DNA of 64,000 nt from Candidatus Manganitrophus morganii (GCA_021651055.1 JAJHOH010000001.1:682001-746000); one strand, 5' to 3'. Shown: positions 55,420 to 63,504, counted from the first letter of the stretch. A program made the numbers and translations. Notes: generated by a model not told the origin, from the letters alone.

Positions 55420-56454
55420 TCATTCGAGACCGGTGCTTCCGAACGAACGCGCTCCCCTGAACGCCGCCTCTACCTCCTTAAAAAGTTGCGCTCCTTCGCC
55501 GTTATACTTCGCCGAGAAGTGAAATGGAATCACCTCCTTCACCCCTGCTTCACGGGCGAGACGGCCGGCCTGCTCGGTGGTGAGGTGATATTTCTCCGCG
55601 GCGCGCGCGGCATCTTCTTTGAGGAAGGATGATTCGATAAAAAGGACATCCGATCCGCAGGCCAGGTCGATGATCTTTCGGGCGTTCTCCGGATGGTAAA
55701 CCACATCGGTCACGTAAGTGATCTTCTGTCCAGGGACGATTCGAATGATCTCCCGTTTGAGATCTCCGAGCGGGACGATGCGTGCTTCGATTCTTCCCTC
55801 CACTTTCCACCAAATCCGGAAGGGAGCCTCCTCCGGCTCCTGGCGCAGGACCGCGTCCTTTAATTCCTTGAGCCACGGTCCGATCGGAAACGCCCGCTCC
55901 TCCAATCGGTTTTTTAAGATGTTGATGTGGGCTTTCTCTTCAAGGGTGTAGCCGAGGGAAGGGATCTTGTGGTCGAGGCGCGCGCATCGGATACGGAATC
56001 CCAGCTCATCCAGCAACAGGCCATCCGAGAAAGGAACGACCGTGCTCTCCTCTCGCCGGAAGGCACTGCGGGTGCGGAAGCGGGTGGTCTTCAATTCCCG
56101 CTCGCCGACCTCGGTGACGACGACATGGAAATCGGCCGGATAGTTCTCGACGAGGTTCCACGTGTAGGCGGAAAGTTTATGGGCCACTTGATCGGTAATC
56201 CGGGGCGGGCCGAAGAGATGAAGCTCCTTCTCCCGGCCGAGACAGACCCGAAGCATCTGGTCGAACCCGATGAAATGGTCCATGTGAGCGTGGGTGATGA
56301 AGGCATGGCTCGTCTTGAGGAGCTGACGCGCGGAGAGGGGCCGGAGATCTCCCATGTCGAAGAGAAGCCCCCGCCGCTCGAAGAGCAGCGATACGTAGAG
56401 CCCGGGATCACCGAAGGGGTCGTGGATCAGGCGGGGATGAAAGAGAGGCTTCAT
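55420..56454 (-). CDS. Ribonuclease Z-like metallo-beta-lactamase
   Basis: 344 aa. The zinc motif THAHMDHFIGFDQML (about 54-68), the segment LHLFGPP, YVTDVVYHPENARKIIDLACGSDVLFIESSF (about 248-278) and the late His in KEVIPFHFSAKY are in the right order for RNase Z family enzymes. RNase Z removes 3' trailers of tRNA precursors. It is longer in the middle than short RNase Z proteins, and the N-terminus starts FHPRLIHDPFGDPGLYV rather than the usual LGT opening. An RNase-Z-like hydrolase with another substrate is possible. Confidence 0.85.
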   Translation of the reverse strand: MKPLFHPRLIHDPFGDPGLYVSLLFERRGLLFDMGDLRPLSARQLLKTSHAFITHAHMDHFIGFDQMLRVCLGREKELHLFGPPRITDQVAHKLSAYTWNLVENYPADFHVVVTEVGERELKTTRFRTRSAFRREESTVVPFSDGLLLDELGFRIRCARLDHKIPSLGYTLEEKAHINILKNRLEERAFPIGPWLKELKDAVLRQEPEEAPFRIWWKVEGRIEARIVPLGDLKREIIRIVPGQKITYVTDVVYHPENARKIIDLACGSDVLFIESSFLKEDAARAAEKYHLTTEQAGRLAREAGVKEVIPFHFSAKYNGEGAQLFKEVEAAFRGARSFGSTGLE

Positions 56455-56487: not shown

Positions 56488-57396
56488 CTATCCCCCGGCC
56501 TTAAACGCCCGATAGAGCGCGTCGGCCTCGCCGACGAGCGAGCGGTGCCGCGGCTCCCATCCGAGCAGCTGTTGGGCCAGGGCCCCCGAGACCTGCTGAT
56601 CCAATGCCAGCGTATCGGCAAAAGGTCCCATCTGTTTTCTGGCTTCTTCGAGTGGGGTCGTGTTGACCTTGCCGTAGCAACCGGCCGCGGTGCTGAGCGC
56701 CTCGGCAATCGCGCGGAGCGTCAGCCGGGAGCTGTCGCTGGCATTGAAGACCTGTCCCGCAGGGGTCCGCTCGACGCAGCGGACATACAGATCGGCCAGA
56801 TCATCGACGTGCACCAGCGTCCAATGGTTCCGTCCCTCGCCGACGATCCGTACCGCCTTTTCCTTTTCCGCCGACGCCATCAGCATCGCCAGAATGCCGC
56901 CGGCGCCGCCGTAAACGAGAGCGGGACGAATGATGCAGGGAGTGACTCCCCGGCCGGCGGCCTCCAAAACCATCTGCTCCACGGCAGGACGCCAGGCGAC
57001 GATCGGCGCCGCCTTCTCGGTCGACGCGTTCTCGTCGACAAAGCGGCCGCCGGTATCCCCCAAGACCCAGACCCCGCTGGTATAGATGAAGCGACTCCGG
57101 CCCTTGGATTGCGAGAGGGGATCGAGCACCGCCGAGACCCACTGCTGGTCGATCTTCCCGCCATCCGGAGACATCTCCGCCGCCGTATGAACGATGGCAT
57201 CGACCTCTGCGGTCAACGGGATCAAAGGGCCCGGCTTCTTAATGTCCCCCTCTACCGCTTTCGCCCCGAACCGTTCCACCCGTTGGGCCTTCTCCGGCGT
57301 GTGAACCAGCGCCGTCACCGCATGTCCGGCGCGGCAGAGCGCCGCCACCACCGCATTTCCGATATACCCCGATCCACCCGTGACAAAGACTCTCAT
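56488..57396 (-). CDS. NAD-dependent epimerase/dehydratase family protein
   Basis: 302 aa from ATG 57396 behind AGAGGGAGG. The Rossmann motif VTGGSGYIGNAVVAALCRAGH (about 5-25), DIKKPGPLIPLTAEVDAIVHTA, FIYTSGVWVLGDT and the C-terminal QVFNASDSSRLTLRAIAEAL fit atypical (extended) SDRs. The YxxxK catalytic pair is not evident: the expected Tyr position falls near RPAVEQMVLEA. It may therefore be a regulator or an unusual reductase. It lies 33 bp before the RNase Z gene and 54 bp after a cupredoxin-domain gene. Confidence 0.85.
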   Translation of the reverse strand: MRVFVTGGSGYIGNAVVAALCRAGHAVTALVHTPEKAQRVERFGAKAVEGDIKKPGPLIPLTAEVDAIVHTAAEMSPDGGKIDQQWVSAVLDPLSQSKGRSRFIYTSGVWVLGDTGGRFVDENASTEKAAPIVAWRPAVEQMVLEAAGRGVTPCIIRPALVYGGAGGILAMLMASAEKEKAVRIVGEGRNHWTLVHVDDLADLYVRCVERTPAGQVFNASDSSRLTLRAIAEALSTAAGCYGKVNTTPLEEARKQMGPFADTLALDQQVSGALAQQLLGWEPRHRSLVGEADALYRAFKAGG

Positions 57397-57450
57397 GAAA
57401 ACCTCCCTCTGCAACCGTTGGCCCCACTTACGGGAGCAACCAGAACTCGC

Positions 57451-58434
57451 CTACTTCATCTTCTGAATGTCTTTTTTCAATTCGGAAAGCAGCTTTTCCT
57501 TCTCCGACCGAAACGCCGCCTCCGCCGACGGGCCCTCCTTTTGAACCTGTTTGACGAGCGTGTTAAATCGCGCGTCATGCGCCTCAGCCTGGTCCTTTCC
57601 GAGCTTTTGAGAAATTGCGTTCCTCAGCCCCGACTCTCCATAGAGCCGAGAATGGGTGGTCAACACCTTGGTCATCGCCCCGGTCCTCTTCCCCCCTTTC
57701 CAGGTCCGGATGGCCTGATCGAGCGAGACGCCGACTTCATTCAGCACCTCCATCCAATCCTTATCGGGGACTTCGGTCAGATTCGCCTCTTTAGGCGTCT
57801 TCGTCGTCAAACTCAAATCGGCGGAAACTGCCGTCGCCCCGACCGTAATCGATCGGCCTCCCGTCTTGATCTCCTCGGCAGTCAGCCGGGGATGCCACGC
57901 CTCGATCCGATATGTGCCCGGCGGGACGTTCGGAAGCTCATATTTTCCGTTCTTCCCGACCACCGCATAATATTGCGAGGGAGCGACGAAGACCATCCCT
58001 CGCATCTGCGTGTGGATCTTGCACCGGAGCATCACCGCCCCCGGCTTCTCGAAGATGACTGTTTTGATGTCCCCCTTATTATGCGCCCCGATATCGAAAC
58101 GGTTTCCCGGGGTGGTCGAGTGGACATTGTGCATCTCTGTGTCGTGATTCTCAAAGAGAATGGTGGAGCCGACCGGCACGACGGTGAAAAACGGGATGAA
58201 CTCCAAATTCTCCTGCCGAATTGTCGTCTCCTTCGGCGGCGCCGGGGCTGATTTTGGACGGGTGTCCTTCAAATAAATCACCGCCCCCTCCCCCAAATCC
58301 GAGCCGACCCGGACGGTCCCCCGGACCGCGGCCGCCTCCGCGTTGGCCGAAAAACAAACCGCCACCAACCAAAGAGAGAGGATCGATAGGACTCCCCCTC
58401 GAATCGTTCTCCGAACATGATGTACATTCATCAT
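57451..58434 (-). CDS. Periplasmic cupredoxin-domain protein with C-terminal helical extension
   Basis: 327 aa from ATG 58434 (MMNVHHVRRTIRGG) behind AAGAGGT. Signal peptide about 1-34. The plastocyanin-like domain (about 35-150) has copper-ligand-like residues: His in EMHNVHSTTPG, then Cys, His and Met in LRCKIHTQMRGM. VPVGSTILFENHD precedes them. A carboxypeptidase-regulatory-like beta domain follows (YELPNVPPGTYRIEAWHPRL). Unlike its paralogue at 60004-60645 it adds about 110 charged helical residues. A copper redox or metal-binding role in the periplasm is inferred. It is downstream of the Nramp-like gene by 89 bp. Confidence 0.85.
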   Translation of the reverse strand: MMNVHHVRRTIRGGVLSILSLWLVAVCFSANAEAAAVRGTVRVGSDLGEGAVIYLKDTRPKSAPAPPKETTIRQENLEFIPFFTVVPVGSTILFENHDTEMHNVHSTTPGNRFDIGAHNKGDIKTVIFEKPGAVMLRCKIHTQMRGMVFVAPSQYYAVVGKNGKYELPNVPPGTYRIEAWHPRLTAEEIKTGGRSITVGATAVSADLSLTTKTPKEANLTEVPDKDWMEVLNEVGVSLDQAIRTWKGGKRTGAMTKVLTTHSRLYGESGLRNAISQKLGKDQAEAHDARFNTLVKQVQKEGPSAEAAFRSEKEKLLSELKKDIQKMK

Positions 58435-58523
58435 AACCTCTTTATCCTCTCCATGAAAAGACCATCCGCGCAACAATAATCTCTGCCGAAAAAAAGTTCA
58501 AGAGGGGGGGACAATTGATTTTT

Positions 58524-59921
58524 TCAGCCGATCCAGAGATATGCCATCGCCAGTCCAAGGTAGATCACGAAGGAAAAGATCAGGCGCCATGCCGACTCTT
58601 TTGAAGGGCGGGCCCACTCCGGAAGCTGGGGAGCGAGAAACCGATAGTTCAATAAATAGAGCGCTCCCGGAAAAAGGATCGTTCCGGAAAATCCGATCGC
58701 GGCGCTGGTAAGAATCAGCGGTCCCGGCTGATCGAGGAGCATGGTCAACGAGGTGATCACCGTTAAAAGCGCCAGGAAGAAGTAATACCACTGGCGGCCG
58801 GTAAATTTTTTGCTGGCGGGAAAGAGGATCGTGACGATATCAGCCTGCATCCGGCTGACGGCGTCGGCGGTCACGAGCCAGGTGTCGGTGAGAAACGCCG
58901 CGGCAACTATTAAGAAAAGTGTCCGGCCAAATGCTCCCCAGCTCACCTCAAAGAACCGGCTCTGGACCACCGCGAGTTCATAATCTTGAGGGACCAGTCC
59001 CTTCGGAAAGAGCAAGGCATAAGCCAAAAGAGAGGTCATCATCGTCGTCGCGAGGTTGCCGAGAATGCCGATCAACACATCCGTGGAGAGATACCGCTCC
59101 CATTGCCGCCACGCGGCCGCCGATTGCGCCGACGCTTCGGGTAAAAATCCATCGGCGGTGATCGGCTCCGGTTTTCCGGTCAATCCGGTGATCCGGCCGA
59201 TATGCTCCGCCATCGCGCTTCCTTTGTCGCGCAGCCAATAGGAATAGAAGAGAATCCAGAAGCCGCCAAGCCCGGCAAAGGTGATCGCCGTCAAGAGCTT
59301 GGTGTCGTCGTTTCGATCCCAGGGCCGCGGCGGCGGGCCGGTCATGCCGAAGAGTCCGGCAAAAAAGCGGGGGGTCGTCTGAAGGACCTCGGGCTGAAGA
59401 CAAGCCCAGAGGAGCCCCGCCACGGTGGTGATCGCCACGATCTTCATCGACCACTCGATCAGGGTGTAGACCATCCGGCTCAACAGAATCGCAACCAGAA
59501 AGATCGCAATGGTCGAATAGGCCCAGAAGAGGGTTTGGCCGCGCGGGCTCCAGCCGGGAGGAAAGTGGGTCAGCGCCGCCATCGCCGTTCCCCCCGCCGA
59601 GGCGAAGGCGCCGAACCAGAGGAAGGAAAGGCTCATCAAGATCCAGAGGAGGATCCCGAACCCGCGGTGGAGCCGGATGAAACCATGAAAAATGCTCTCT
59701 CCGGTGAGGAGGGTATACCGCCCGATCTCGACCGTCATCGGATACTGAAGCAGACAGGCCGGAATCAGCAGGACGAGAAAGGTCAGTCCATATTTGGCGA
59801 TGAGGTAGGGCCACCAGATCAGCTCTCCGCTTCCCTGCGCCAGCGCCATCCAGACGATCCCCGGACCCAACGCCGCGGCCCAGCCGGGAAAGGGGGGAAT
59901 CGGTTTTCGACCGTACGACAT
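58524..59921 (-). CDS. Nramp-related membrane transporter lacking the canonical metal motifs
   Basis: 465 aa, about 11 membrane helices, ATG 59921 behind GGAGG. It opens GPGIVWMALAQGSGELIWWPYLIAKYG (about 19-45). This is the position of Nramp helix 1, where GPG is usual, but the DPGN metal motif is replaced by GSGE. The MPH motif of helix 6 is also absent near FWILFYSYWLRDKG. The overall hydrophobic profile and LLFPKGL, DTWLVTADAVSRM and QPGPLILTSAAIGFSG segments support the Nramp superfamily. Manganese or iron import by the classical mechanism is unlikely; the substrate is unknown. It is flanked by two related cupredoxin genes. Confidence 0.75.
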   Translation of the reverse strand: MSYGRKPIPPFPGWAAALGPGIVWMALAQGSGELIWWPYLIAKYGLTFLVLLIPACLLQYPMTVEIGRYTLLTGESIFHGFIRLHRGFGILLWILMSLSFLWFGAFASAGGTAMAALTHFPPGWSPRGQTLFWAYSTIAIFLVAILLSRMVYTLIEWSMKIVAITTVAGLLWACLQPEVLQTTPRFFAGLFGMTGPPPRPWDRNDDTKLLTAITFAGLGGFWILFYSYWLRDKGSAMAEHIGRITGLTGKPEPITADGFLPEASAQSAAAWRQWERYLSTDVLIGILGNLATTMMTSLLAYALLFPKGLVPQDYELAVVQSRFFEVSWGAFGRTLFLIVAAAFLTDTWLVTADAVSRMQADIVTILFPASKKFTGRQWYYFFLALLTVITSLTMLLDQPGPLILTSAAIGFSGTILFPGALYLLNYRFLAPQLPEWARPSKESAWRLIFSFVIYLGLAMAYLWIG

Positions 59922-60003
59922 GGGCCTCCGAGAGTCAAAAAGCCGCCCATTTTAACACAAACTGAAAACGTGGAGGAAGGAAAGAAAAAGGGGGGAGATC
60001 CGG

Positions 60004-60645
60004 TCAGGGATTTTTTCGGGTCAGGACATTCCCTTCCCAGTCGAGATCGATCGTCGTGACCCAGGCGCCGATTCGGACGGCGAGACCCTTCGGTTTTTGA
60101 TCGGGAGCGCTCCGCTCCGGGTGCCAGACTTCGATTTCATAATCGCCCGCCGGCACGCCGGAGAATGCGAACTTCCCATCCGATTCGATCAACATAAAAA
60201 AAGGAGAGGGGGAGACGAAAACCATCCCCTTCATATCTGAATGGATTCTGCAACGGAGGTCTACTCCGCCCGGTTTTTTGAGCACGACCTTCCTCGATCT
60301 CCCCGGAATCTGCAACCCAAGATCAAACCGGTTTCCGGGAGAGTCGGACTTGATATTGTGCATCTCAAAGTCGTCGTTCTGGAAGGTGACCGTCGAGCCG
60401 ACCGTGACGATGCTGAACTTCGGTTTGAATTTGAACATTTCCTGGCGGATGGTGATCGGCATCGGAGAAACGGGGGCGGGAGGCTGATTGAGATCACGGA
60501 GGTAGACGACGGCCCCTTCTGCGGGCAAGGTGTCGATGATCAAATTTCCACGAAGGCTGCCCGAAGACTCAGCATAAGTTGAAGTATGGAATAAAAGGAT
60601 AAAAAGGAGGATGATGAGAACACTTCCGGTCTTACGGCAGTCCAA
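60004..60645 (-). CDS. Periplasmic cupredoxin-domain protein
   Basis: 213 aa with a TTG start (60645) behind GAGGT. The first residues form a signal peptide (DCRKTGSVLIILLFILLFHTSTYA), and no ATG exists upstream of it. It shares with the 57451-58434 protein GAVVYLRDL, VTVGSTVTFQNDDFEMHNI, PGNRFDLG and LRCRIHSDMKGMVFVSPSPFF, including the putative copper ligands His, Cys, His, Met. A beta-sandwich tail (GVPAGDYEIEVWHPE) follows. Its start overlaps the HEPN gene by 14 bp, so translation is coupled. The Nramp-like gene follows at 82 bp. Confidence 0.84.
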   Translation of the reverse strand: MDCRKTGSVLIILLFILLFHTSTYAESSGSLRGNLIIDTLPAEGAVVYLRDLNQPPAPVSPMPITIRQEMFKFKPKFSIVTVGSTVTFQNDDFEMHNIKSDSPGNRFDLGLQIPGRSRKVVLKKPGGVDLRCRIHSDMKGMVFVSPSPFFMLIESDGKFAFSGVPAGDYEIEVWHPERSAPDQKPKGLAVRIGAWVTTIDLDWEGNVLTRKNP

Positions 60646-61012
60646 ATCTGGACCTCAAGATTGTCCGGATCATCTCCGCTGTCTTCATGGAATCTTCGGC
60701 GGCCTCGCGGTCAGCCTGGCGACCCGGATAACGAGAGGCGATGCCGAAAACGCTCAGGCGGGCCAGCTGTTCCTTGTGGGCCTTTAAATCCTGAAGCGGC
60801 TCTCCGGAGATATTCAACAGGACGACGAGATCATGCGTTTTTGGAAAGGCAATATTGGATTCTTCTAGGAAAGCCTTCAAATACTTTTCTCCGCACTGTT
60901 GCGCGAGAAAACAGATCACGTTCCAGACAGGATCGACCGCTCCCATCTCCCGCCGCGCCACCTTCAGATCGCCCTCCGCCTTCTCAACCCACTCCAATGT
61001 TTCAGGCTTCAT
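60632..61012 (-). CDS. HEPN-domain protein
   Basis: 126 aa, all helical. ETLEWVEKAEGDLKVARREM (about 4-23), VICFLAQQCGEKYLKAFLEESN (about 32-53), FPKTHDLVVLLNI and SRYPGRQADREAAEDSMKTAEMIRTIL are typical of HEPN proteins paired with MNT nucleotidyltransferases. The toxic RxxxxxxH ribonuclease motif of HepT is not seen, so it may be a non-nuclease HEPN that binds nucleotides or its MNT partner. It overlaps the MNT gene by 11 bp. Confidence 0.88.
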   Translation of the reverse strand: MKPETLEWVEKAEGDLKVARREMGAVDPVWNVICFLAQQCGEKYLKAFLEESNIAFPKTHDLVVLLNISGEPLQDLKAHKEQLARLSVFGIASRYPGRQADREAAEDSMKTAEMIRTILRSRFGLP

Positions 61013-61331
61013 AAAGGACGACCCCTCGGGTGATCACCTCTGTTGCGAAAACTCCTTTTCTCTTCAGGGAAGCTTCTAACTCAGAGGGGGTGAAAACGGC
61101 GATATCGAGAGGAAAAGGATGATCGATCGACGCGGCGATGCGAGCCGCGGTGTGGAGAGGATTTTCGTCCGTCCTCATTACGACTAAAAGATCGACATCA
61201 CTATCCGAGGTCGGTTTTCCATAAGCATGGGAACCGAAGAGAATCACTCTCTCCGGATGAAAATGAGTGGCGATTTGCTGGACGACTTGTCGAATATCAC
61301 TTAAAGTGATCGCTGCTTTTTGTCCGGCCAT
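61002..61331 (-). CDS. Minimal nucleotidyltransferase (MNT) protein
   Basis: 109 aa from ATG 61331 (MAGQKAAITLSDIRQVV). A longer open frame to 61520 overlaps the aldolase/dehydrogenase gene and has no site. The polymerase-beta-like motif VILFGSHAYGKPTSDSDVDLLVV (about 32-54) has GS-x-x-x-G and DxD metal residues, and a third Asp comes in PLDIAVF. MNT antitoxins adenylylate HEPN toxins; here the partner overlaps downstream. Whether it is a toxin-antitoxin or a house-keeping pair is open. Confidence 0.88.
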   Translation of the reverse strand: MAGQKAAITLSDIRQVVQQIATHFHPERVILFGSHAYGKPTSDSDVDLLVVMRTDENPLHTAARIAASIDHPFPLDIAVFTPSELEASLKRKGVFATEVITRGVVLYEA

Positions 61332-61416: not shown

Positions 61417-63504
61417 CTATCTTGGGAACGCCTCCCGCACCCCCCCATCGACCGGAATGATCGCGCCGGTCGTTTTGGCGGCACGGTCGGAGGCGAGGAA
61501 CAGCACCGACTCGGCGACATCGCGCGCGGTGATCTTCGTCTGGAGCAGGTTTCGCTTGGCGTAGAAGTCTTCCACCTGCTCCACCGGAATGCCGTGGGCG
61601 CGCGCCCGCTCTTCGCGGATCGCCGGCGACCAGAGGCCGGAATTTTCGAAGACCCCGTCGGGATTGACCATGTTGACCCGGATGCCGGCCCCGGCGTTCT
61701 CGATCGCCATGATCCGGGACAGCTGGGTCTGCGCTGCCTTCGACGCGGAGTAGGCGCCGAAGTCTTTTCCGGGGGCCAGGACGTTTTTGGTCGCCACCAC
61801 GACGACCGATCCGCCGACCCCCTGCTCCTTCATGATCCGGAGCGCAGATTGAGAGGTCAGGAAATGGCCGGTGGCATTCACCGCGAGCGACATTTCCCAA
61901 TCGGCGAGCGACAGCGTGTCGACCGAGGCGGTCTTCGCCACCCCCGCGTTGGAGATGAAGATATCAAGCCCACCATAGGCCAGCACCGCCTGCTCGAATC
62001 CGCGGCGGACGCTCTTCGGATCGGTCACGTCCATCGCCACCGCCGTCGCATTCACCTCGCCGGCCTTCTTGTTGATCTCATCGACGAGCATTTGGGTCTT
62101 CTTCAAATCGATGTCGGAGAGAACCACCATCGCCCCCGCCTCGACGAACGCCGCCGCAATGGCGCGCCCGATCCCGCCGGCAGCGCCGGTGACGAGCACG
62201 ATTCTCCGGGAGAATTCTTTCTCCGGCGGCAGGAGCGTCAGCTTGAAGTTCTCCATCGGCCAGTATTCGAAGTCGCAGATCTCGCGGGTGGTGATCGACC
62301 GGTACGCCTCGATCCCGGCGGCGGCCTCGATCACCGACATCGTGTGAAGATAGAGATCGCGCGGAATCCGCGTCGCCCGCCGATCTTTGCCGGTGGTGAA
62401 CATCCCGATGCCGGGGATCAGAACGACGCGCGGGTTCGGATCGAGCATGGTCACCCCGGGTGTCTTATACTTTTCAAAGTAGGAAATGTACTTTTCCCGA
62501 TAAGCCTCGCATCCCTTCCGGATCTTCTCCCGGAGTTTCTCCGGATCGCCCGGCTTCTTCGTATCGACGAAGAGCGGCCACGGCTTGGTGTGCATCAGGT
62601 GATCCGGCGTGAAGGGGCCGATCTGGGTCAGCCGTCTTGCCTCTTCCGAACCGGCAAACTTCAATACCGCCGGCGCATCTTCATACTGCAGCACCATTCG
62701 TTTCTCTGGTGGCCGCCCCTTTACCTGAGCCATTCGGCTCACCTCGCCGCGCAGGGTGGGCGCCACCTCGGCCGCCACGGCATGCCGCTCGGCATGGGAG
62801 AGCGCCGGCACTTTCATTCCACCCAAGGTAAGCTTTCCCCGTCCTTTCTTCGCTGCATACCGCTCGGCTTGGGTGACCATGGAGATTGTGAGGTCATACG
62901 CTTCCTTCGCCGTCTCGCCCCAGGTGATCAGGCCATGTTTGTCGAGGATGATCGCCTTGAGATTGGGATTTTTCTGATAGGCCTCCCCGACCCACTTCGA
63001 GAGGAGAAACCCCGGCCGGATGTAATCGACGACCGCCACCTCCTTTCCATAGACCTCTTCAACCACTTTCGGACTGTCCGGGGTATCGGTGAGGGCACAG
63101 ATCGCGTCGGCGTGGGTATGATAAATGTGTGGAGAAGGGAGGAATGCATGGAGAAGGGTTTCGATCGACGGCTTCGGCGCGCCCGGCTCTAAGACCGACT
63201 TCATCTGGTAGGCGACCATCTCCTCATCGGTCATCGCCTCCCGTTTCATCAACGGAAGGAGATCGTCGAGGCGGAGCGGGGTAAAGTTCTTCGCGGCGAT
63301 CGTCCGCATGTCCGACCCGCTCCCTTTGATCCAGAGAATCCGGACCGGGGCGCCGGTATGATCCTTACCATTCACCTTGATCGACGAATTCCCCCCGCCC
63401 CACAACACCAGGTTGGGATTCGCCCCGATGATCCGGGAGGTATACACGACCAAATCGACCCCCGTCAACCCCTTCGCATCCCGATCCGACCAGAGACTTT
63501 CCAT
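61417..63504 (-). CDS. Bifunctional class II aldolase / short-chain dehydrogenase
   Basis: 695 aa with a GAGGAGGG site. The N-terminal part (about 1-420) is a class II aldolase/adducin domain with zinc His motifs in YHTHADAICAL and DKHGLITWG. The C-terminal part (about 430-695) is an SDR with VLVTGAAGGIGRAIAAAFVEAGA, NAGVAKT and the YSASKAAQTQL catalytic pair; DGGVREAFPR ends it. This fusion (RhaD/YuxG type) cleaves rhamnulose 1-phosphate to lactaldehyde and dihydroxyacetone phosphate and oxidises the lactaldehyde. No other rhamnose genes are near, so the sugar is unproven. The LarBC genes upstream may be relevant through lactate, but that is speculation. Confidence 0.92.
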   Translation of the reverse strand: MESLWSDRDAKGLTGVDLVVYTSRIIGANPNLVLWGGGNSSIKVNGKDHTGAPVRILWIKGSGSDMRTIAAKNFTPLRLDDLLPLMKREAMTDEEMVAYQMKSVLEPGAPKPSIETLLHAFLPSPHIYHTHADAICALTDTPDSPKVVEEVYGKEVAVVDYIRPGFLLSKWVGEAYQKNPNLKAIILDKHGLITWGETAKEAYDLTISMVTQAERYAAKKGRGKLTLGGMKVPALSHAERHAVAAEVAPTLRGEVSRMAQVKGRPPEKRMVLQYEDAPAVLKFAGSEEARRLTQIGPFTPDHLMHTKPWPLFVDTKKPGDPEKLREKIRKGCEAYREKYISYFEKYKTPGVTMLDPNPRVVLIPGIGMFTTGKDRRATRIPRDLYLHTMSVIEAAAGIEAYRSITTREICDFEYWPMENFKLTLLPPEKEFSRRIVLVTGAAGGIGRAIAAAFVEAGAMVVLSDIDLKKTQMLVDEINKKAGEVNATAVAMDVTDPKSVRRGFEQAVLAYGGLDIFISNAGVAKTASVDTLSLADWEMSLAVNATGHFLTSQSALRIMKEQGVGGSVVVVATKNVLAPGKDFGAYSASKAAQTQLSRIMAIENAGAGIRVNMVNPDGVFENSGLWSPAIREERARAHGIPVEQVEDFYAKRNLLQTKITARDVAESVLFLASDRAAKTTGAIIPVDGGVREAFPR

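Follow-up and report, generated by a model that had tools for sequence, protein, structure and literature searches.

Transporters with the LeuT/Nramp fold that lack the DPGN (TM1) and MPH (TM6) motifs of canonical Nramp (Slc11) proteins form paraphyletic, largely uncharacterised groups (PMC12873925), among which the Slc11 outgroup and the NRMT proteins have been described (PMC9606685). A transporter of this kind, here termed NRL, was studied in the genome of Candidatus Manganitrophus morganii (G000, a single contig of 4,287,287 bases), where it lies between two cupredoxin genes, cupB and cupA, in a stretch of 64,000 nucleotides (the window). Because PMC12873925 already reports a mostly uncharacterised Nramp-related set, the kind to which NRL belongs is known. 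NRL shares the fold and the missing motifs with the Nramp-related proteins (Slc11 outgroup, NRMT, YcsG/MntG groups, NF037982), but it stands further out than these, does not match PF01566, and belongs to a clade with invariant QGSGE and AGLGGF motifs of its own. It resembles the magnesium transporter EleNRMT by fold only. The products of cupA and cupB have the fold, the H...CxxHxxM ligands and the short amicyanin-type loop of plastocyanin/amicyanin-type cupredoxins; they differ from them in that the cupredoxin domain is joined to a CarboxypepD_reg-like beta domain and, in the case of cupA, also to a C-terminal helical domain. The two genes preceding cupB are like MntA/HepT (type VII) toxin-antitoxin systems in gene order and domains, whereas here the MntA model scores under its cut-off and the HEPN protein lacks the RX4-6H motif.

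Five co-oriented genes, MNT, HEPN, cupB, NRL and cupA, were confirmed on the minus strand at 57451-61331 (Table 1), with transcription running in the order RhaD, MNT, HEPN, cupB, NRL, cupA, SDR and RNase Z-like. The original prediction of two exported cupredoxin paralogues with a His/Cys/His/Met pattern flanking a transporter was borne out by the gene positions, the fold and the ligands (22/22 homologues). The TTG start proposed for the first cupredoxin gene was also found, overlapping HEPN by 14 bases (60632-60645) and preceded, 7 bases upstream, by GAGG; the same start codon is used in the congeners G002 and G004, in the latter likewise with GAGG. For cupA the most likely start is the ATG at 58434 and not the TTG at 58476, since an AGAGG (SD) sequence stands just upstream of the ATG.

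Table 1. Genes of the locus and its flanks in the order of transcription (positions in the window)
Gene	Product	Position	Strand	Basis or remark
RhaD	RhaD-type aldolase/dehydrogenase, upstream of MNT	61417-63504	minus	
MNT	nucleotidyltransferase, MntA-like antitoxin	61002-61331	minus	PF01909
HEPN	HEPN protein, toxin-like partner	60632-61012	minus	PF05168, 83.1 bits
cupB	shorter cupA paralogue without C-terminal helical domain	60004-60645	minus	TTG start overlaps HEPN
NRL	Nramp-related inner-membrane transporter, LeuT fold	58524-59921	minus	NF037982, AF2, Foldseek, invariant motifs
cupA	N-terminal hydrophobic helix (signal/anchor), plastocyanin-type cupredoxin, CarboxypepD_reg/fn3_3-like beta domain, C-terminal all-helical domain	57451-58434	minus	
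SDR	SDR epimerase, downstream of cupA	56488-57414	minus	
RNase Z-like	RNase Z-like protein, after SDR epimerase	55420-56454	minus	

The MNT and HEPN genes were identified by Pfam matches above cut-off (NTP_transf_2, 39.4 bits, for MNT). Against the MntA equivalog model NF047752 the MNT protein scored 37.7 bits, below the cut-off of 60, and no RX4-6H motif was seen in HEPN by inspection. The original prediction had included this pair in a single system with the cupredoxins and the transporter, which the comparison with the congeners (G001-G005) contradicts: HEPN-MNT is whole only in G000, remnants of the HEPN tail are left in G004 and G005, nothing of the pair was detected at the locus in G002 and G003, and MNT was not found in the locus of the congeners. 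An arrangement in which MNT-HEPN, the cup genes and NRL formed one defence or stress island, with the toxin-antitoxin pair and the transporter under joint regulation, would be compatible with the overlap of the cupB start with HEPN, which allows translational coupling. It is nevertheless extremely improbable, taking into account that four congeners with cup genes have either no HEPN-MNT or a mere remnant of it, and that cupB has its TTG start even where HEPN is missing. HEPN-MNT is a hitch-hiker and not part of the cup-NRL module; it would be a toxin-antitoxin-like pair, unrelated to that module, which was gained and lost again at the upstream margin of the locus. In G002 a 248-aa protein with the look, by eye, of an outer-membrane beta-barrel (L105:6474-7220) replaces HEPN-MNT between RhaD and cupB, and the site between these two genes seems to take up different cargo.

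The cupredoxin domains score just below the Pfam Copper-bind cut-off of 21.2 bits (cupA 17.4, cupB 20.5), and a profile built from 22 cup homologues matches blue-copper PDB chains with an E value of 1.5e-7. In both proteins the plastocyanin-type domain is followed by a CarboxypepD_reg/fn3_3-like beta domain (Pfam). When an AF2 model of the cup protein (pLDDT 88) was used in Foldseek, plastocyanin, amicyanin and pseudoazurin were retrieved (TMt up to 0.81 for plastocyanin), in agreement with the Greek-key cupredoxin fold of type-1 copper proteins. All 22 homologues have the type-1 copper ligands H102, C138, H141 and M144 (numbered as in cupA). The cup proteins are most likely periplasmic or membrane-anchored proteins that would serve in one-electron redox reactions or hold copper. 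The predicted copper site is in these proteins and not in NRL, and copper transport by NRL found no support.

Judged from their sequences, cupA and cupB are paralogues (39% identity over the MAFFT alignment, 44% in the local match). In the tree the clade of the cupA family (98/98) includes cupB, which is not the sister of Manganitrophus cupA alone and thus looks like an older, shortened paralogue. The C-terminal domain of cupA (residues ~227-326) is all-helical in the AF2 model. It gave no significant PDB sequence match, and no significant second copy of it was detected in the G000 genome. An FTR1 iron-permease-type assignment of this domain was rejected, there being no FTR1 in the genome and no significant PDB match.

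NRL scored 188.8 bits against the NCBIfam model NF037982 ('Nramp family divalent metal transporter', curated cut-off 50), and the four relatives tested gave 168-215 bits. The AF2 model (pLDDT 86, pTM 0.88) has the LeuT fold with helix breaks at residues 30-31 (TM1, G30-S31) and 215-219 (TM6), that is, with the broken TM1 and TM6 that characterize canonical Nramp (Slc11) proteins. The top PDB folds found by Foldseek were DraNramp, YcsG, EleNRMT and BfraNramp (DraNramp E 3.7e-8, TMt up to 0.79); the APC carriers LAT1, AdiC and ApcT were also matched (TMt about 0.56-0.66). No PDB match was obtained by sequence, either with the profile or with the single protein, and none of 53 family members matched the Nramp Pfam model PF01566, even at E<=10. 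This model could not be used to place NRL, as both of its matches in the G000 genome are other genes.

Neither DPGN nor MPH is present in NRL. Their places are taken by QGSGE (residues 29-33) in TM1, invariant in 53 NRL sequences except for G32 (S in 2/53), and by AGLGGF (216-221) in TM6, invariant in 53/53; the description of the protein as a transporter of Nramp ancestry without the two motifs was exact. The gapless TM1 alignment of DraNramp with NRL pairs D56 with G30, P57 with S31, G58 with G32 and N59 with E33. This register is fixed by a paralogue in the same genome that aligns gaplessly in TM1 (HMMER alignment to DraNramp, E 1.7e-10). The paralogue, a second Nramp-related protein (G000:C1:2849680-2850996, L015), has TGSGE in TM1, matches both NF037982 and PF01566 and is 29% or 25% identical to NRL in two alignments; it is a more typical Nramp-related protein, a bridge between NRL and canonical Nramp. 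In TM6, aligned without gaps by eye, A227, M230 and H232 of DraNramp correspond to A216, G219 and F221. Canonical Nramp proteins have an acidic residue in TM3 and a proton path in TM3/TM9; the TM3 stretch of NRL, SFLWFGAFASAGGT, has no acidic residue in a register set by eye only. The NRMT-type TM1 segment is missing, G30 replacing the TM1 Asp, which the substitutions made to mimic NRMT leave in place (PMC10606218).

Since the Nramp scaffold of NRL is without the Asp/Asn and Met/His metal ligands, the protein is unlikely to be an importer of Mn, Fe or Cu of the canonical type. Its motifs would suit a small organic anion or a hard or hydrated divalent cation better than Mn, Fe or Cu. In the transport direction that we infer, NRL would import such a cation (Mg-like, as EleNRMT) or anion, options suggested by motif resemblance only. 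Neither the window region nor any of 29 NRL loci yielded a metal riboswitch that could serve as a clue to the substrate. The TM1 GSG and TM6 GGF sequences are similar to the loops with which APC amino-acid carriers bind the backbone carboxylate. NRL could accordingly be a carrier of organic solutes, whose adjacency to copper proteins would be accidental. The TM1 break at G30-S31, the invariant GS and GG motifs and the match of the APC carriers to the NRL fold all speak for this, as does the former annotation of the Nramp-related Bacillus YcsG as a 5-oxoproline importer, a protein that has since been assigned to Mn import (PMC10448178). The Nramp and NRMT structures fit NRL better than do those of the APC carriers, however, and the conserved E33, an invariant acidic residue at the substrate break in TM1, would suit a cation. 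We regard an organic-solute carrier as possible but somewhat doubtful.

Inside the genus the order RhaD-[variable]-cupB-NRL-cupA-SDR is found in G000, G002 and G004, and in G003 cupB-NRL-cupA is kept up to the contig end, which is inside cupA. The cupB-NRL-cupA synteny is thus kept in three congeners (G002, G003, G004) across dS values above 1. In G001 the contig ends inside cupB. The NRL gene of G004 is broken across frames (L107:7798-9203); the contig is long, the completeness of the genome is put at 86%, and the break may reflect either an assembly or sequencing error or a pseudogene. G005 has kept cupA and lost cupB and NRL. Five Manganitrophus genomes allow the state of cupB as well as that of NRL to be read, and in each of them the two genes are either both there or both missing; their joint absence in G005, a single event, hints at a working link between these two. 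All three genes are under purifying selection, with dN/dS values between G000 and the congeners of 0.11-0.15 (cupA), 0.06-0.07 (NRL) and 0.15-0.28 (cupB), and this conservation (0.06-0.28 overall) excludes chance. The intergenic gaps are short (82 bp between cupB and NRL, 89 bp between NRL and cupA), and no terminator-like site was detected on the coding strand of either. cupB, NRL and cupA are probably co-transcribed and co-selected in Manganitrophus, perhaps via a shared cue.

The co-orientation, the short gaps free of terminators, the synteny, the joint absence in G005 and the association of cupA, in relatives, with an MnxG-like oxidase cluster (see below) could also be explained by a dedicated metal module, in which the blue-copper proteins would oxidise, reduce or buffer periplasmic metal and NRL would move it across the inner membrane, providing a private uptake or export route for a manganese-oxidising genus. 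This explanation can be judged against the NRL genes of other organisms. Eighty NRL loci were fetched, 79 of them from outside Manganitrophus and from at least seven phyla. No cup homologue was detected by tblastn and a sensitive cup HMM in the available flanks of these 79 loci. Flanks of at least 3 kb on both sides were available for 54 of the 80 loci and of at least 2.5 kb on one side for 73, so that the absence of cup genes near NRL outside the genus is well sampled but not complete. The neighbours of NRL elsewhere are unrelated and, by eye, often housekeeping-like (rlmN-, glnA-, ispG-like and others). Nor was NRL found beside the cupA orthologues read in other Nitrospiria. The co-occurrence in relatives expected by the original prediction therefore holds inside the genus and fails outside it. 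With no cup-NRL pairing outside the genus, with NRL devoid of canonical metal ligands, with cupA persisting without NRL and with NRL occurring without cup genes in many phyla, a dedicated metal module is unlikely. More specifically, that the two blue-copper proteins and the non-canonical carrier make up a redox-assisted module for the import or export of a metal such as Mn is highly unlikely; if true, cupredoxins would here, to our knowledge for the first time, serve an Nramp-type carrier.

Manganitrophus pairs in the NRL tree with Brocadiaceae/Planctomycetota, tentatively (fork 89/68); the larger clade that contains this pair (100/99) is rich in Pseudomonadota, and other Nitrospirota branch elsewhere. 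This placement makes horizontal spread of NRL, in one direction or the other, likely. At the genome level NRL and full-length cupA occurred together in 8 genomes, NRL alone in 1, cupA alone in 10 and neither in 39 (Fisher p 0.0002). The association is confounded by phylogeny: without families f1 and f6 the p value was 0.32.

Full-length cupA orthologues are widespread among the 58 closest genomes. Four genomes of the Nitrospiria families f10 and f11 (G022, G027, G023 and G032; loci L172, L192, L139 and L191) share a cluster in which each has a cupA orthologue together with additional cupredoxins. A MarR gene occurs in G022, G027 and G023, and a gene for a TPR protein in G022, G023 and G032. 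G022 and G023 also encode a giant multicopper oxidase; in G027 the match to it is weaker and partial, at the end of the contig. A protein of ~195 aa is also present where the contig reaches it. The best NCBIfam model for the giant oxidase is MnxG, with a score far under the cut-off. Elsewhere, two genomes that belong to the same taxonomic order have a short cupredoxin of ~195 aa immediately followed by a ~650-aa sensor-like membrane protein (L146:248-2838, L147:408-2988). For cupA the association with the oxidase cluster is more informative than that with NRL, and the cupA family of Nitrospiria is more likely to be partnered by an MnxG-like oxidase cluster than by the transporter.

While in other Nitrospiria families cupA orthologues and related cupredoxins adjoin such an oxidase, in G000 the giant multicopper oxidases are located elsewhere and are distant MnxG relatives only. 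They are encoded at L115:8553-13589 (1678 aa) and L116:1456-6372 (1638 aa), score 133 and 99 bits, respectively, against the MnxG model (cut-off 3100), and share 79% identity with the oxidase in the cluster of G022. Each adjoins cupredoxin-carboxypeptidase-like proteins of ~294-315 aa. The two enzymes may be the 'two novel MCOs' to which PMC9040806 refers. The Manganitrophaceae comparative-genomics paper has no text on cupredoxins, copper or transporters.

We favour, with a probability of roughly 0.6, the interpretation that the locus is a genus-specific gene neighbourhood, in which a pre-existing periplasmic blue-copper redox gene stands beside a horizontally acquired Nramp-related carrier, and not a conserved multi-family system. 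In this genus-specific neighbourhood cupA belongs to a family of exported type-1 (blue) copper proteins that extends across Nitrospiria, with cupB as its shortened paralogue, and the cup proteins may have a role akin to that of the cupredoxins found with MnxG-like giant multicopper oxidases in relatives. NRL would be a free-standing secondary transporter that passed from phylum to phylum and came to lie next to cupA no later than in the ancestor of the genus. The cup-NRL arrangement is a real but modest local curiosity of the genus and does not demonstrate a new system. The NRL clade, defined by sequence, spread over several phyla and marked by the invariant QGSGE/AGLGGF motifs, offers an assayable single-gene unit in the mostly uncharacterised non-canonical groups of the superfamily, and the association of cupA with the oxidase bears on the handling of manganese and copper by Manganitrophus.
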